Assembly: GCA_018814055.1 (NCBI GenBank)
Contig: JAHJAL010000036.1
Location: 1-5,771 of the forward strand
DNA: 5,771 nt
DNA from: Patescibacteria group bacterium
GTDB taxonomy: Bacteria > Patescibacteriota > JAHJAL01
Direction: 5' to 3'
Positions 1 through 5,771 of the stretch are shown piece by piece. Position numbers and translations under genes: made by a program. The notes beneath the pieces were generated by a model, which worked only from the letters and a program-made list of their open reading frames with translations, was not told the origin of the DNA and did not search any database. Within the stretch, counting starts at the first letter, position 1, and every line of letters starts with the position of its first letter.

Positions 1-165
1 AAGGCAGATGTTGATTTTTGGTTTAATGAAAATTACAAAAAGACTGATTTTCCTAGTGCCTTGGGAAAGCAACTGGGGTGGTTGAAAGATGCCGGTTTTG
101 AAAAGTGTGAAGAAGTGTGGCGTTATATGAATTATTCGGTGTTTTATGGAAAAAAAGGTTTGTAG
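1..165 (+). CDS. Class I SAM-dependent methyltransferase, C-terminal end only
   Basis: This frame is open from the first base and ends at TAG 163-165, giving 54 residues of the C-terminus of a longer protein cut by the window edge. The visible end contains LGKQLGWLKDAGF, then a Trp/Tyr/Asn-rich strand (VWRYMNYSVFYGKK) and a short basic tail. This is the typical last helix and last two strands of class I (Rossmann-fold) SAM-dependent methyltransferases, where a 'QLxWLxxAGF' helix is followed by a strand ending in a 'FGGxK'-like turn. The SAM-binding motifs (GxGxG) lie upstream and cannot be seen, so substrate and exact subfamily stay open. The end overlaps the start of the next gene by 20 bases in another frame, which suggests co-transcription and possibly coupled translation. 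The reading frame is secure; the family call rests on a short tail. Confidence 0.72.
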   Translation, partial: KADVDFWFNENYKKTDFPSALGKQLGWLKDAGFEKCEEVWRYMNYSVFYGKKGL

Positions 166-1915
166 AAAATGCAATGCTGATTTTATTGTAGCTGATGATG
201 ATCTGGTTTTTTACCGTAAAATCGGGACGCCGACGCCGACGTGGTGTCCGGAGTGCCGGCGGGTGCGGCGGTTTGTCTGGCGGAATGAGCGGTCTTTGTA
301 CCGAAATAAGTGTGCGGCGACAGGGAAAGAGGTGATTTCGTCTTTTTCACCCGATAAGCCGATCAAGATTTATGATCAGAGTTACTGGTTTTCGGATGCC
401 TGGAGTCCGCTGGATTACGGGCGGGAGTATGATTTTTCCAGGAGTTTCTTTGAGCAGTGGCGGGATTTGTATTACGCGGTGCCGCAGATTAATGTTTCCA
501 ATAAAAATGTCGAAAATTCAGAGTTTTGTAACGTGAATTCGGACAGCAAGGATTCGTATCTGATTTCGGCGGCGTATGAGAACGAGCGGGTGATGTATGG
601 TAATCGGGTGGGGGCGAACAGGGATTCTCTGGATTTGTATATTGCCAATAATAATGAGTATTGTTACGAACTGGTGGCGGGGAAGAATTGTTATAAGGTG
701 TTTTGGGGGCAGGATTGCACGAATTGCAGTGATTGTTATTTTATTTATGATTGTCAGGGTTGTCGTGATTGTGTAGGCTGTACCGGTTTGCGGAATAAAC
801 AGTATTATATTTTTAATCAGCCGTATGACAAGGCTGCTTATGAGCGGAAGGTGGCGGATCTGGATTTGCGGAGTCGGGCGGGATTGGAGCGGACGCGGGT
901 GGAATTTGAAAAGTTGCGGGCGGGGCAAGTGCGAAAGTTTGCCAATCTGGTGAATTGTGAAAATTCGACGGGAGATAATCTGGAGGGAGCGAAGAATTGT
1001 CATGAATGTTATGATCTGGTAAATGGTTTGCAGAATTGCAGGTACGCGGTGTGGGGTGGTTATCAGATGAGCGATGTTTATGACGCCAGTCCGGGGGTGG
1101 GGGCAAATTCGAGTGTGATTTATGAGGCGTTTGATGCCGGGATTAATTCGAATGATATTCAGTTTGTGGGAGTGGTGCATAATTCGAGTAACGTGCGTTA
1201 TTCTTTGAATTGTTATAGTTCGAAGAATCTGTTTGGTTGTGTGGGTTTGTCGCGGCAGGAGAATTGTATTTTGAATAGGCGGTATCCGGAAAGTGAATAT
1301 GGGACGATGGTGGAGCGGATTAAGCGGCAGATGATGGATTTGCCGTACGTGGATCGGCTGGGGCGGGAGTATCGGTACGGGGAGTTTTTTCCGCCGGAGA
1401 TGTCGCCGTATGGGTATAACGAGACGGTGGCGCAGGAGTATTATCCGATTGATCAGAGCGTGGCGGTGGAGTGCGGGTTTAACTGGTCTTATGATGTGGC
1501 CAGGAATGTGGCGGTCACGAAGAAGGCGGGTGATTTGCCGGAGAGTGTGGATGAGTTGCGGGCGCTGGGCGAGGGGATTTTGCGGGAAGTGATTGAGTGT
1601 GAGCATAAAGGTGAATGTAACGAGCAATGTACGATCGGTTTCAAGATTTTACCGCAGGAGTTGGCGTTTTATTTGGAACATGGTTTGCCGTTGCCGAAAT
1701 TGTGTTTTAACTGCCGGCATTACGCACGGGTGAAGTTGAGGAATCCGATGAGGTTGTGGAAGAGACAGTGTGATAATCAATTAAGAATTAAGAATGAAGA
1801 ATTAACGGGGGATGAGAAAACGCAGCGTTGTCCGAATATGTTTGAGACGACGTACGCGCCGGAGAGAGAGGAGAAGGTTTATTGTGAAAAATGCTATCAG
1901 AATAGTGTTGTTTGA
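146..1915 (+). CDS. Cys-rich multi-zinc-ribbon solenoid protein A (CPR family, function unknown)
   Basis: This is a 589-aa, probably cytoplasmic protein with no signal peptide or membrane segment. Visible order: zinc ribbon 1 (C6-x2-C9, C34-x2-C37, then R-rich RRVRRFVWRNE); a conserved linker (SDAWSPLDYGREYDFSRSFF, 83-102); eight 12-residue units (125-220) with nine Cys between 173 and 212; a cap with GLRNKQYYIFN; a helical stretch (227-265); a second, irregular repeat block (about 266-373) ending in a similar cap; PYGYNETVAQEYYP (421-434); zinc ribbon 2 (C485/C491/C495, C520-x2-C523); and a C-terminal module (C542, C562, C580-x2-C583). I recognise the family from Parcubacteria-type genomes, where copies are deposited as hypothetical or, as I recall, misleadingly as 'CaiB/BaiF family'; no enzyme motif supports that name. 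ATG 146 is chosen because the first CxxC follows at once, as in the paralogue at 2711. It has no Shine-Dalgarno site, so coupling to the upstream gene is plausible. Function is unknown; metal binding is inferred. Confidence 0.93.
   Translation: MEKKVCRKCNADFIVADDDLVFYRKIGTPTPTWCPECRRVRRFVWRNERSLYRNKCAATGKEVISSFSPDKPIKIYDQSYWFSDAWSPLDYGREYDFSRSFFEQWRDLYYAVPQINVSNKNVENSEFCNVNSDSKDSYLISAAYENERVMYGNRVGANRDSLDLYIANNNEYCYELVAGKNCYKVFWGQDCTNCSDCYFIYDCQGCRDCVGCTGLRNKQYYIFNQPYDKAAYERKVADLDLRSRAGLERTRVEFEKLRAGQVRKFANLVNCENSTGDNLEGAKNCHECYDLVNGLQNCRYAVWGGYQMSDVYDASPGVGANSSVIYEAFDAGINSNDIQFVGVVHNSSNVRYSLNCYSSKNLFGCVGLSRQENCILNRRYPESEYGTMVERIKRQMMDLPYVDRLGREYRYGEFFPPEMSPYGYNETVAQEYYPIDQSVAVECGFNWSYDVARNVAVTKKAGDLPESVDELRALGEGILREVIECEHKGECNEQCTIGFKILPQELAFYLEHGLPLPKLCFNCRHYARVKLRNPMRLWKRQCDNQLRIKNEELTGDEKTQRCPNMFETTYAPEREEKVYCEKCYQNSVV
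518..805 (+). repeat. Eight 12-residue Cys repeats in protein A (residues 125-220)
   Basis: Written in rows of 12 residues from S125, the units line up without gaps, for example VMYGNRVGANRD (149), CYELVAGKNCYK (173), VFWGQDCTNCSD (185) and CYFIYDCQGCRD (197). Position 2 is mostly aromatic or aliphatic, position 9 is often N, position 12 often D, and cysteines fall only at unit positions 1, 4, 7 or 10. The last unit runs into the cap GLRNKQYYIFN. The period of 12 suggests a solenoid with one short turn per unit. This is read by eye; the fold is inference. Confidence 0.75.
1781..1808 (+). repeat. 7-bp repeat array inside the coding sequence of gene A
   Basis: Units TTAAGAA (1781), TTAAGAA (1788), TGAAGAA (1795) and a decayed TTAACGG (1802) follow each other without gaps. 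Three intact units make 21 bases, so the frame is kept and they encode LRIKNEE (residues 546-552). The array lies in the linker between C542 and C562 of the C-terminal Cys module. The same kind of array is present in the same linker of gene B and just downstream of gene A. Confidence 0.7.
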
Positions 1916-2710: not shown

Positions 2711-4531
2711 ATGATTAACAAGAATTGTAGTAGGTGTAGTGTTGATTTTGTGGTGACGGATGAAGATCGGGAATTTCTAGATAAGATGGAGGTGGACATT
2801 GGTGGGAGAAAATTTGAATTACCTTTACCAAATATGTGTAGGGATTGTCGGTCAAAGCAGAGGATGACTTTTCGTAATACATGGGCGTTGTATCGAAGGA
2901 AGTGTGATACAACTGGTCAAGATATGGTATCGATGTTTAATCCGGATTGTAAATACAAGATTTATCATCGGGATATTTGGTATTCAGATGTTTGGGATCC
3001 TATGCAATATGGAAGGGAAGTGGATTTTTCCAGGTCATTTTTTGACCAGCTTCAGGAGTTATTTTTGGCAGTGCCGTTGTTTCATAATTCGGTGGCTGAT
3101 GACGAGAATAGTGATTTTTCCAACAATTCGAATTTGCTGAAGAATTGTTATATGACGCAGGATAGTACGGAGTCGGAGAATTGTTTGTATGGTAATGCGT
3201 TTGGATTTTCGCGGGATTGTGTGGATTGTACCAAGGTAATTAATTGCGAAGGTTGTTATGAGGTTGTTAATGCCTATGATTGTTATGGGTGCTATTATTC
3301 GACAAACTTAAAGAATTGTCGGGAAAGTTATTGGTTGGACGGTTGCGTTGGTTGTAATAATTGTTTTGGGTGTAAGAATCTGAACAATAAACAATATTAT
3401 ATTTTCAATCAATCAAGGACGAAAGATGAGTATGAGAAGTTTATTGAGTTGTATGTAAATGGTGATAAAACGTATCGAACGGGGATTGAAGGGCAGGTGA
3501 AAAATTTGTGGGTGAGTGAGCCCAGCCGGTTTGCCCAAGTTTATTCGAGTGAAGATTGTACAGGTGATTATATTGGTGATAGTCGGCAGGTAAAGGATTG
3601 TTTGTTGGTGGATAATTCGGAAAATATTCGGTATTCGATGGTGATCAACCGGAGTAAGGATTTTATGGATGTGGAATCGTTTGGATTGGATTCCGAGCGG
3701 GTTTATTGCTCGGTGACGGTGGGATTGAATGCGAATAATGTGTGTTTTTGTAATGAGGTTTGGGAAAATGTGGCCAATGTTTATTATTCGTGGTTTTGTG
3801 GACAGGGAGCGAAGGATTGTTTTGGTTGTGCGGGCTTGCGGGGGAAGCAGTATTGTATTTTGAACAAGCAATACTCAAAAGAAGAATATGAAGAGCTGGT
3901 GCCAAAAATTATCGAGCATATGCAGCGAACTGGTGAATGGGGAAAGTTTTTCCCAATGTCGTTTTCTCCATTTGGCTACAATGAAACGATTGCGAATGAA
4001 TATTATCCTCTGACCAAAGAGCAAGCCCTGGCGATGGGGGCGAATTGGTGTGATAAGCCGGAGCTGCAGTATAGTTTTGATCAATATTATCAGCCGTTGC
4101 CTATACGGCAATATGATCCGCAGGTTAATGCGGGTGCACAGGGTGAGATTGATAAATGTTTGCAGGGGGTGATTAAGTGTGATGTGGCGGGAAGGCCTTT
4201 TAGAATTATATCGCAGGAATTGTATTTTTATATCAAACGGGGTTTGCCGGTACCGACGGTGCATCCGGATGAGAGGAGGAGGGTGAGGAATAGGGATATT
4301 AATCGGGCGAAGTTTTTCAAAAGGCAGTGTGATTGTGGGAAAATTACGGATGACCCCAGTCATGCGACGGGGCAGGCTCCCAGCTATACAGTGGGGCAGG
4401 CTGAATTACGAATGACGAATGGAGAAAGGCAGGTTGGTTGTGATCATGGGGGACGGTGTGGGAATTGGTTTGAGACGACATATGAGTTGGGTAAGGGGAG
4501 GGTTTATTGTGAGTGGTGTTATAGAGAATAA
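2711..4531 (+). CDS. Cys-rich multi-zinc-ribbon solenoid protein B, paralogue of the gene at 146
   Basis: A 606-aa protein colinear with protein A; no signal peptide or membrane segment. Order: zinc ribbon 1 (C6-x2-C9, C43-x2-C46, with an eight-residue longer loop than A); linker with SDVWDPMQYGREVDFSRSFF (92-111); eight 12-residue units (134-229) holding 13 Cys between 146 and 221; cap LNNKQYYIFN; second repeat block (about 274-381) with cap LRGKQYCILN; PFGYNETIANEYYPL; zinc ribbon 2; and the end module (C540-x-C542, C577, C583, C600-x2-C603). Zinc ribbon 2 is degenerate: the second CxxC of A (C520/C523) is replaced by H518/E521, and only C490 remains of the first knuckle. The linker 543-576 is enlarged by a tandem PSHATGQA/PSYTVGQA repeat and a heptamer array encoding LRMTNGE. 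Base composition is more AT-rich than gene A. ATG 2711 puts the first CxxC at the same place as in A; no Shine-Dalgarno is present. Function unknown; metal binding is inferred. Confidence 0.93.
   Translation: MINKNCSRCSVDFVVTDEDREFLDKMEVDIGGRKFELPLPNMCRDCRSKQRMTFRNTWALYRRKCDTTGQDMVSMFNPDCKYKIYHRDIWYSDVWDPMQYGREVDFSRSFFDQLQELFLAVPLFHNSVADDENSDFSNNSNLLKNCYMTQDSTESENCLYGNAFGFSRDCVDCTKVINCEGCYEVVNAYDCYGCYYSTNLKNCRESYWLDGCVGCNNCFGCKNLNNKQYYIFNQSRTKDEYEKFIELYVNGDKTYRTGIEGQVKNLWVSEPSRFAQVYSSEDCTGDYIGDSRQVKDCLLVDNSENIRYSMVINRSKDFMDVESFGLDSERVYCSVTVGLNANNVCFCNEVWENVANVYYSWFCGQGAKDCFGCAGLRGKQYCILNKQYSKEEYEELVPKIIEHMQRTGEWGKFFPMSFSPFGYNETIANEYYPLTKEQALAMGANWCDKPELQYSFDQYYQPLPIRQYDPQVNAGAQGEIDKCLQGVIKCDVAGRPFRIISQELYFYIKRGLPVPTVHPDERRRVRNRDINRAKFFKRQCDCGKITDDPSHATGQAPSYTVGQAELRMTNGERQVGCDHGGRCGNWFETTYELGKGRVYCEWCYRE
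3110..3397 (+). repeat. Eight 12-residue Cys repeats in protein B (residues 134-229)
   Basis: Rows of 12 from S134 align without gaps and match the rows of protein A one to one: CLYGNAFGFSRD (158), CVDCTKVINCEG (170), CYEVVNAYDCYG (182), CYYSTNLKNCRE (194), SYWLDGCVGCNN (206). All 13 Cys (146, 158, 170, 173, 179, 182, 191, 194, 203, 212, 215, 218, 221) have the same remainder on division by three, meaning unit positions 1, 4, 7 and 10 only. Position 1 is Cys in six of the seven units from 146 on. Confidence 0.8.
4355..4402 (+). repeat. 24-bp tandem duplication inside gene B
   Basis: Two adjacent 24-bp units (4355-4378 and 4379-4402) both begin CCCAG and end GGGGCAGGCT. The nine central bases differ at six positions, all of them transitions. 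They encode PSHATGQA and PSYTVGQA (residues 549-564). The first unit plus one upstream C can fold as a hairpin: CCCC 4354-4357 with GGGG 4369-4372 and GTC 4359-4361 with GAC 4366-4368, ATGC loop, one bulged A. The second keeps only CCCA/TGGG pairing. Confidence 0.75.
4406..4426 (+). repeat. 7-bp repeat array inside the coding sequence of gene B
   Basis: Units TTACGAA (4406), TGACGAA (4413) and TGGAGAA (4420), exactly 21 bases, encode LRMTNGE (residues 566-572). Two further related units, TTACGGA and TGACCCC (4344-4357), lie on the other side of the 24-bp duplication, as if that duplication had grown within or beside a longer heptamer array. The array sits in the same linker and in the same frame as the one in gene A. 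Confidence 0.68.
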
Positions 4532-4549: not shown

Positions 4550-5771
4550 ATGAGAATCAATAAAATAAAATTGGTTAATCAGACAGAGCTTGAGTTTGGA
4601 GATATAAATATATTCATTGGTCCAAATAATGTTGGAAAAACTACTTTGTTGAGAGAAATACGATCCGCTCCTATGAATACTAATTTTTTAGGTGGGAAGT
4701 GGTTGTCAGGAGAGAATATTCACGTATTAGAATTTGTGGAATCTGATTTTGATGATATAGAAAATAATCTTGTTTTTGAAAGTAATGGCCAAAAATTAAT
4801 TCGATTTTATAGGAATGATAATGGTGTTATTGATGAATTAAAGACAGATGTATTGAATGATGAACTGAAGAAATGTATTGAAAAAAAAGAATTTGGTGTT
4901 GATCGGCAGAATTATGGTTGGTATAAAAGAATAATTCAAAATTTTATTGCCAACGAAGCAACAGAGGAAAGACTAAATGTCTTGGGTGAGGTTATTGTAT
5001 CAAAAAGAAGTTGTCCAAAAGATAATTATAATTATTTATTAAACCGTCCCGATTTAATTTCGGATCTAAATAGTTTGTTGCTGAAGCTGTTCGATTGTGA
5101 ATTAGTGGTTGATATTAGCGAAAGATCTGTAATGGAGTTATTTATTACAAAGAATAATCCTTTTTGTAAAAATGTAATTGAACATGATGATGATTTAGAC
5201 AAATTATTGGATTGCAAACATAAACATTTTATTCGTTTGGATGTTTGTGGTGATGGTATTAAAGCTGTTATGAGATTGTTTTTGTCTATGTATGATCCTT
5301 TGACAAAAATGTTATTCATTGATGAACCTGAGGTTTTTTTAAATAAGCGAATAAGAAAACGTGTTGCAGAGGAGTTTGCTTTATTGTCGAAGAAAAGTGG
5401 TAAGCAAATTTTTTTGATTACGCACGATCCGGTTTTTTTATCTGGTTTTGTTGCAGGTCATTATTCTACTAATGAGATTAAAGTATTTTACTTGAAAGAT
5501 TTTAATAATATTAGACACATTGATTTTGGGAATAAGAAAATAACGCAATCAACAAAACAAGAAAAGTATCTTGATATGTTTTTTCATAAGTATTCTGTTA
5601 TTTGTGAGGGTGTCGACGATGTATATATTTATTCTGAGTATTTAAGAAGAAAACAATTATTGGATGATGTGTATTTTGTTGGAGTTGATGGAGTACAAAT
5701 TGATGATGTTGTGGAGTTAGCAAAGAACATCATTGAAGGATTTAATAGGGATTACCCTTGTAGGGAAAACA
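4550..5771 (+). CDS. OLD-family ATPase with TOPRIM nuclease domain, N-terminal part
   Basis: The frame is open from ATG 4550 to the window edge (407 codons), so the 3' end is missing. Visible motifs: an N-terminal strand pair (MRINKIKLVNQTELEFGDINIF); Walker A GPNNVGKTT (24-32); a signature-like GDGIKAVMRL (234-243); Walker B MLFIDEPE with D258/E259; a switch/H-loop LITHDP with H292; then the first TOPRIM motif ICEGVDD (E353, D356, D357). This order, SMC/ABC-type ATPase followed by TOPRIM, defines overcoming-lysogenization-defect (OLD) proteins, ATP-regulated DNA nucleases that include GajA of the Gabija defence system. Family members are often 500-700 aa, so about a third may lie downstream. 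It starts 18 bases after gene B with no Shine-Dalgarno site and no clear promoter. It is markedly more AT-rich than gene A (about 30% GC in one hand-counted line, 5101-5160), which fits separate acquisition. Whether it is Gabija, a class 1 OLD or another defence ATPase depends on its unseen neighbour. Confidence 0.88.
   Translation, partial: MRINKIKLVNQTELEFGDINIFIGPNNVGKTTLLREIRSAPMNTNFLGGKWLSGENIHVLEFVESDFDDIENNLVFESNGQKLIRFYRNDNGVIDELKTDVLNDELKKCIEKKEFGVDRQNYGWYKRIIQNFIANEATEERLNVLGEVIVSKRSCPKDNYNYLLNRPDLISDLNSLLLKLFDCELVVDISERSVMELFITKNNPFCKNVIEHDDDLDKLLDCKHKHFIRLDVCGDGIKAVMRLFLSMYDPLTKMLFIDEPEVFLNKRIRKRVAEEFALLSKKSGKQIFLITHDPVFLSGFVAGHYSTNEIKVFYLKDFNNIRHIDFGNKKITQSTKQEKYLDMFFHKYSVICEGVDDVYIYSEYLRRKQLLDDVYFVGVDGVQIDDVVELAKNIIEGFNRDYPCREN

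Follow-up and report, generated by a model that had tools for sequence, protein, structure and literature searches.

What is a protein for whose cysteines (Cys) stand only at every third residue, and what do these Cys do within it? The question is raised by contig JAHJAL010000036.1 of a Patescibacteria group bacterium (assembly GCA_018814055.1), the whole of which forms the window analysed here (5771 bases, from a source genome of 925 kb and 82% completeness). It encodes two paralogous proteins, A and B, neither of which has a Pfam or NCBIfam assignment; no Pfam family passed its cut-off for B. The answer that we favour, tentatively and at somewhat less than an even chance, is that the Cys segment forms a thin beta-helix of 12 residues per turn with Cys in its core, and that the protein, below also called a rod, is a cargo or adaptor of an adjoining VirD4-like motor ATPase.

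The initial annotation had described Cys spaced by multiples of three and eight gapless rows of 12 residues in both proteins. Residues 134-229 of B and 125-220 of A indeed write out in this way, and all 23 Cys of the two segments (13 in B, 10 in A) occupy residue numbers equal to 2 modulo 3. The longest in-phase run of Cys in B is 15 without a gap limit and 13 with gaps of up to 40; none of 20,000 shuffles of B reached 13 (largest 11). A homologue search, which scored the 7995 candidates sharing most words with B, revealed at least 6506 homologues at E<=1e-3, and the organisms named among the 120 matches listed were Patescibacteria or plain 'bacterium'. B belongs to a family with hundreds of members in these very small bacteria. 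The longest in-phase run, with gaps up to 40, had a median of 13 among 362 non-redundant relatives and reached at least 10 in 326 of them, compared with 2 of 7240 shuffles. Conservation of the register among homologues, which the initial annotation had named as a check, was evident in the 348 sequences left after removal of 14 for gaps: between residues 122 and 233 one phase takes 13.82 of 14.12 weighted Cys per protein. An alignment of 121 proteins confines the columns of this first solenoid with at least 15% Cys to each third position between 134 and 230. The segment 125-222 has the length of B in 65 of them and is 1-3 residues longer in 56, the extra residues sitting before position 134 in the rows printed. 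B also contains a second solenoid, beyond the segment annotated initially, in which the phase shifts between stretches.

A turn of 12 residues would stack those core positions that lie 12 apart. For the presence of Cys, the correlation between columns of the 348-sequence set peaked at lag 12 (mean phi +0.128, 23 column pairs), was weakly positive at lag 9 (+0.051), not raised at lag 18 (-0.038) and negative at lag 6 (-0.121, 24 column pairs). When the columns of the full set were permuted 200 times, no permutation was as extreme at lag 12 or lag 6; such permutations ignore relatedness, and a set thinned to 67 sequences below 45% identity is the better control, with +0.172 at lag 12 and -0.150 at lag 6. 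Secondary structure prediction placed a bridge residue at about every third position, with a strand pattern E--E--E-- in residues 122-233 of B. The model of the domain matched 82 of 82 residues of the beetle antifreeze protein TmAFP (1EZG), its best VIA match. Both the 12-residue turn and the comparison with TmAFP suggested by the initial annotation are supported. In an alignment of the full-length model with LpxA (5dep_A), 118 model residues cover 183 LpxA residues, which again indicates about 12 residues per turn rather than the 18 of hexapeptide left-handed beta-helices such as LpxA, LpxD and GlmU. As to handedness, the domain model fits the right-handed-type 1EZG and the full-length model fits left-handed helices. 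The predicted fold is a very thin beta-helix, two of which would lie in each protein between terminal zinc fingers.

The match to TmAFP, with its 12-residue turn, inward residue at each third position and core Cys, raises the alternative of an exported, disulfide-bonded protein of antifreeze or adhesive type, for which the large Cys-rich extracellular proteins reported in Peribacteria (PMC4736985) might be a precedent. We consider it very improbable. Every turn of TmAFP has a disulfide between Cys 2 and Cys 8 (PMC8038014), and pairing of this kind would require a positive value at lag 6, where the family is anticorrelated and shows no i/i+6 Cys pairing. Only 52% of sequences have an even number of Cys, and a hydrophobic, signal-like N-terminus is absent from 361 of 362 relatives by a crude hydropathy measure, in agreement with the initial annotation, which had seen no export signal. 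The rows of A and B also lack the TCT ice-binding rank, and in contrast to TmAFP the family is bacterial and carries two solenoids in a protein of 600 residues with zinc fingers. The Cys-rich extracellular proteins of Ca. Peribacter riflensis resemble the rods in being multi-copy and in coming from related bacteria; they differ by an average length of 1,655 amino acids and by signal peptides in most of them, whereas the rods have about 570 amino acids and no signal peptide (PMC4736985). The two sets may overlap.

A metal-binding role was the proposal of the initial annotation, in which stacked Cys at positions 1, 4, 7 and 10 form ladders for metal ions or iron-sulfur (Fe-S) clusters, and the rod would then be a metal store or an electron conduit. 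Up to 20 in-phase Cys occur in a single solenoid, Cys 373 and 382 of solenoid 2 are conserved at 97%, and the turn 212/215/218/221 reads CCCC in 237 of 348 sequences. The same turn, the most conserved of those with four Cys, nevertheless loses its Cys one by one (LCCC in 45, CCCS in 28 and LCCS in 11 sequences), and opposite Cys of a turn tend to exclude each other, as the lag-6 value shows. The volumes of core residues compensate inside turns (z from -1.4 to -17.3 over seven turns) and between neighbours (lag 3, -0.19; lag 12, -0.12); off-register columns showed no compensation in the same test. Windows of five or six core positions gave still larger z, so that the volume test supports a tight core and not four positions per se. 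Single-Cys loss, exclusion at lag 6 and volume compensation are what packing predicts, and with the replacements by Ser and Leu they fit a narrow core packed by small residues; ladders are not supported, and we regard them as improbable. The sole pointer to Fe-S among recurrent neighbours was an ABC ATPase cluster at six loci with a SufC-like member, read by eye. We infer that the core Cys remain reduced, with packing as small residues their main role, although the four-Cys turn may bind a metal.

The ends of the rods are of a different kind. Treble-clef zinc-finger models matched at E<=0.01 in 21 of 53 members (zf_Tbcl_2, PF23477) and 11 of 53 (zf_Tbcl, PF13451), the figures referring to proteins irrespective of the position of the match; neither A nor B was matched by these models. 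The C-terminal region gave a weak LIM match with the family profile (E 0.0023).

Gene neighbourhoods were compared at 77 loci, 71 of which entered the neighbour counts after exclusion of six with frames broken under translation table 11. Two loci (L043 and L090) bear record names outside Patescibacteria and are perhaps misbinned, and two pairs (L046/L080 and L069/L074) each overlap on one contig, whereby a few genes are counted twice. Adjacent family genes were co-directional in all 181 pairs, with gaps of at most 100 bp in 110. The largest array comprises 11 genes in 22 kb; some other loci are single-copy. Two kinds of open reading frame (ORF) recur at the arrays. One is an ORF cluster centred on a VirD4/TrwB-type ATPase, in most cases co-directional with the family genes; the other is a TrmB-like regulator, which usually has the reverse orientation. 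Within 300 bp of a family gene lay 20 of 28 of the former and 24 of 30 of the latter, compared with 94 of 577 other ORFs, although the ATPase and TrmB profiles were built from near ORFs and are thus biased to near matches. Counted by locus, gene linkage within 300 bp, a criterion for substrates of a coupling protein, was found for the ATPase in 18 of 71 loci; the regulator was as near in 18 and both were in 7. All other neighbours were named by eye. Three loci (L018, L028 and L073) each have at least two TrmB-like regulators inside one array region, and some of these regulators are on the same strand, as if the arrays were divided into units under separate control. Two loci fragmented under table 11 contain long frames under code 25 (TGA as Gly), namely eight of 561-684 amino acids in L083 (866-15775) and ten in L025 (148-21307); recoded Gracilibacteria thus seem to retain arrays, the membership of each code-25 frame being putative.

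The association with the ATPase extends to whole genomes. The family was detected in 22 of 286 genomes of the phylum; at most four candidates were scored per genome, which makes copy numbers lower bounds, and negative genomes beyond the 20 listed are those absent from the list of positives. The ATPase superfamily is present in 283 of the 286, but the 20 genomes with the highest ATPase scores are all family-positive (17 of them with at least 755 bits, the other 3 with 597-644), whereas the best family-negative genome reached 590 bits over a shorter span. In 17 family-positive genomes the match includes the subfamily's own N-terminal part. Within three genome families containing both kinds (f63, f50 and f27) the subfamily occurs in 12 of 12 positive and 0 of 7 negative genomes; addition of the fourth such family (f75) gives 12 of 13 and 0 of 8, the positive genome G162 lacking the subfamily (518 bits). 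The ten best TrmB genomes are likewise all family-positive, and some TrmB relative is found in 150 of 286. Genome G000 yielded no TrmB relative; on its contig C151 an ORF of the ATPase subfamily is followed after 177 bp by a family ORF. PrgI, a part of the secretion channel, was detected in 19 of 22 positive and in 7 of 7 tested negative genomes; a channel part is thus usually available, and the module would seem to have been added to it. In genome G216 (contig C11, 21548-23510) a PrgI match begins about 200 bp past a family match, the sole such close pair seen.

The joint presence and absence of a VirD4-type motor and arrays of soluble rods suggests that the motor handles the rods. It would dock them and either pass them to the Patescibacteria type IV secretion system (T4SS) channel or work with them there, the rods being its putative cargo or adaptors. 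The array-linked ATPase belongs to the same superfamily as the VirD4/TrwB coupling proteins of Patescibacteria but forms its own subfamily and is encoded beside the arrays. As reported in PMC12102498, the T4SS spans most classes of the phylum, mostly without a relaxase, is essential for epibiotic growth in one class and has been suggested as co-opted for functions beyond conjugation; VirD4 homologues lie mostly far from virB4. The coupling-protein gene itself, however, was not essential in the strain studied there (PMC12102498). A doubtful but conceivable extension is an export module dedicated to these proteins: arrays of up to about ten different rods, each a disulfide-free 12-residue beta-solenoid, would supply the cargo for a VirD4-like motor of their own and so represent a missing substrate class of the relaxase-less Patescibacteria T4SS. 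No T4SS cluster was recognised beside the arrays, whose flanks were not scanned with profiles.

The strongest competing explanation makes the rods nucleic-acid adaptors, with terminal zinc fingers that bind DNA or RNA and a VirD4/HerA-type ATPase that acts as DNA translocase in DNA uptake or transfer. The ATPase matches models of TrwB, TraD and the DNA-translocating CedD (TraD and CedD below their cut-offs), and to the treble-clef fingers of the rods can be added one array-linked VirD4-like ATPase (L029, 7911-9911) with a zf_Tbcl_2 finger of its own, a model shared with 21 of 53 rods. The mean net charge, however, is negative both for solenoid 1 (-4.5) and for the aligned protein (-5.8), and inspection by eye of the recurrent neighbours, in flanks not scanned with profiles, revealed no relaxase, although RecJ-like and RelE-like ORFs recur, each in four loci (by eye). 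We judge this explanation unlikely.

Co-directional arrays of diverse paralogues would also suit a heteromeric envelope or intracellular filament, in which distinct rod subunits are stacked end to end and assembled by the ATPase. For 191 of 226 sequences of the loci studied the best match lies in another genome, with a median identity of 56% to this match and 45% to the best paralogue of the same genome; the comparison covered part of each named genome and thus undercounts own paralogues, and in G000 13 of 15 sequences instead match best within their own genome. The arrays may be old, or they may expand locally. Array order is not conserved, and additional strands and helices, rather than open helix ends, are predicted at both ends of the protein, so that a filament appears a slim prospect.

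In the window, A is followed by two small ORFs, B and an AAA-ATPase gene (Table 1). Between A and B (2008-2678) lie a DUF5674 gene and a 106-amino-acid ORF with a four-base overlap; relatives of the latter adjoin family genes in L081 and L091. The AAA-ATPase (4550-5770), open at the contig end, matched the AriA, Old and ATPase-Toprim models of PADLOC and is likely an OLD-like defence gene. A reading frame that enters from upstream occupies positions 1-164, with about 54 residues left before its stop. Family ORFs and fragments in the source genome amount to 25 ORFs and 32.9 kb, about 3.6% of its length. Two long paralogue matches in G000, on contigs C113 and C166, contain one in-frame stop each (TAG and TGA) and are perhaps pseudogenes.

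Table 1. Features of proteins A and B in the 5771-base window.
Feature	Positions	Strand	Basis
Protein B, 606 amino acids, family member with the Cys segment	2711..4531	+	ORF; homologue search
B solenoid 1, residues 134-229, eight rows of 12, 13 in-phase Cys	3110..3397	+	Register count; predicted strand pattern E--E--E-- in 122-233
B four-Cys turn CxxCxxCxxC, residues 212-221, strongly conserved	3344..3373	+	CCCC in 237/348 sequences
B solenoid 2, residues 271-387	3521..3871	+	Predicted strand pattern; Cys columns 280-382
B N-terminal zinc finger (likely), Cys 6/9 and 43/46	2726..2848	+	Cys conserved 94-99%
B C-terminal zinc-finger-like region, Cys 490, 540, 583, 600, 603	4178..4525	+	Cys conserved 96-100% among ungapped rows
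Protein A, 589 amino acids, paralogue of B, 37% identical	146..1915	+	ORF; alignment
A solenoid 1, residues 125-220, 10 in-phase Cys	518..805	+	Register count
A solenoid 2, about residues 260-380	923..1285	+	Placed by alignment to B

To our knowledge, the 12-residue beta-helix fold is otherwise known from insect antifreeze proteins alone, and the family, if the predicted fold is true, would be a cytosolic, disulfide-free instance of it. If the link to the motor is real, the rods would provide concrete candidates for what the T4SS of Patescibacteria moves.
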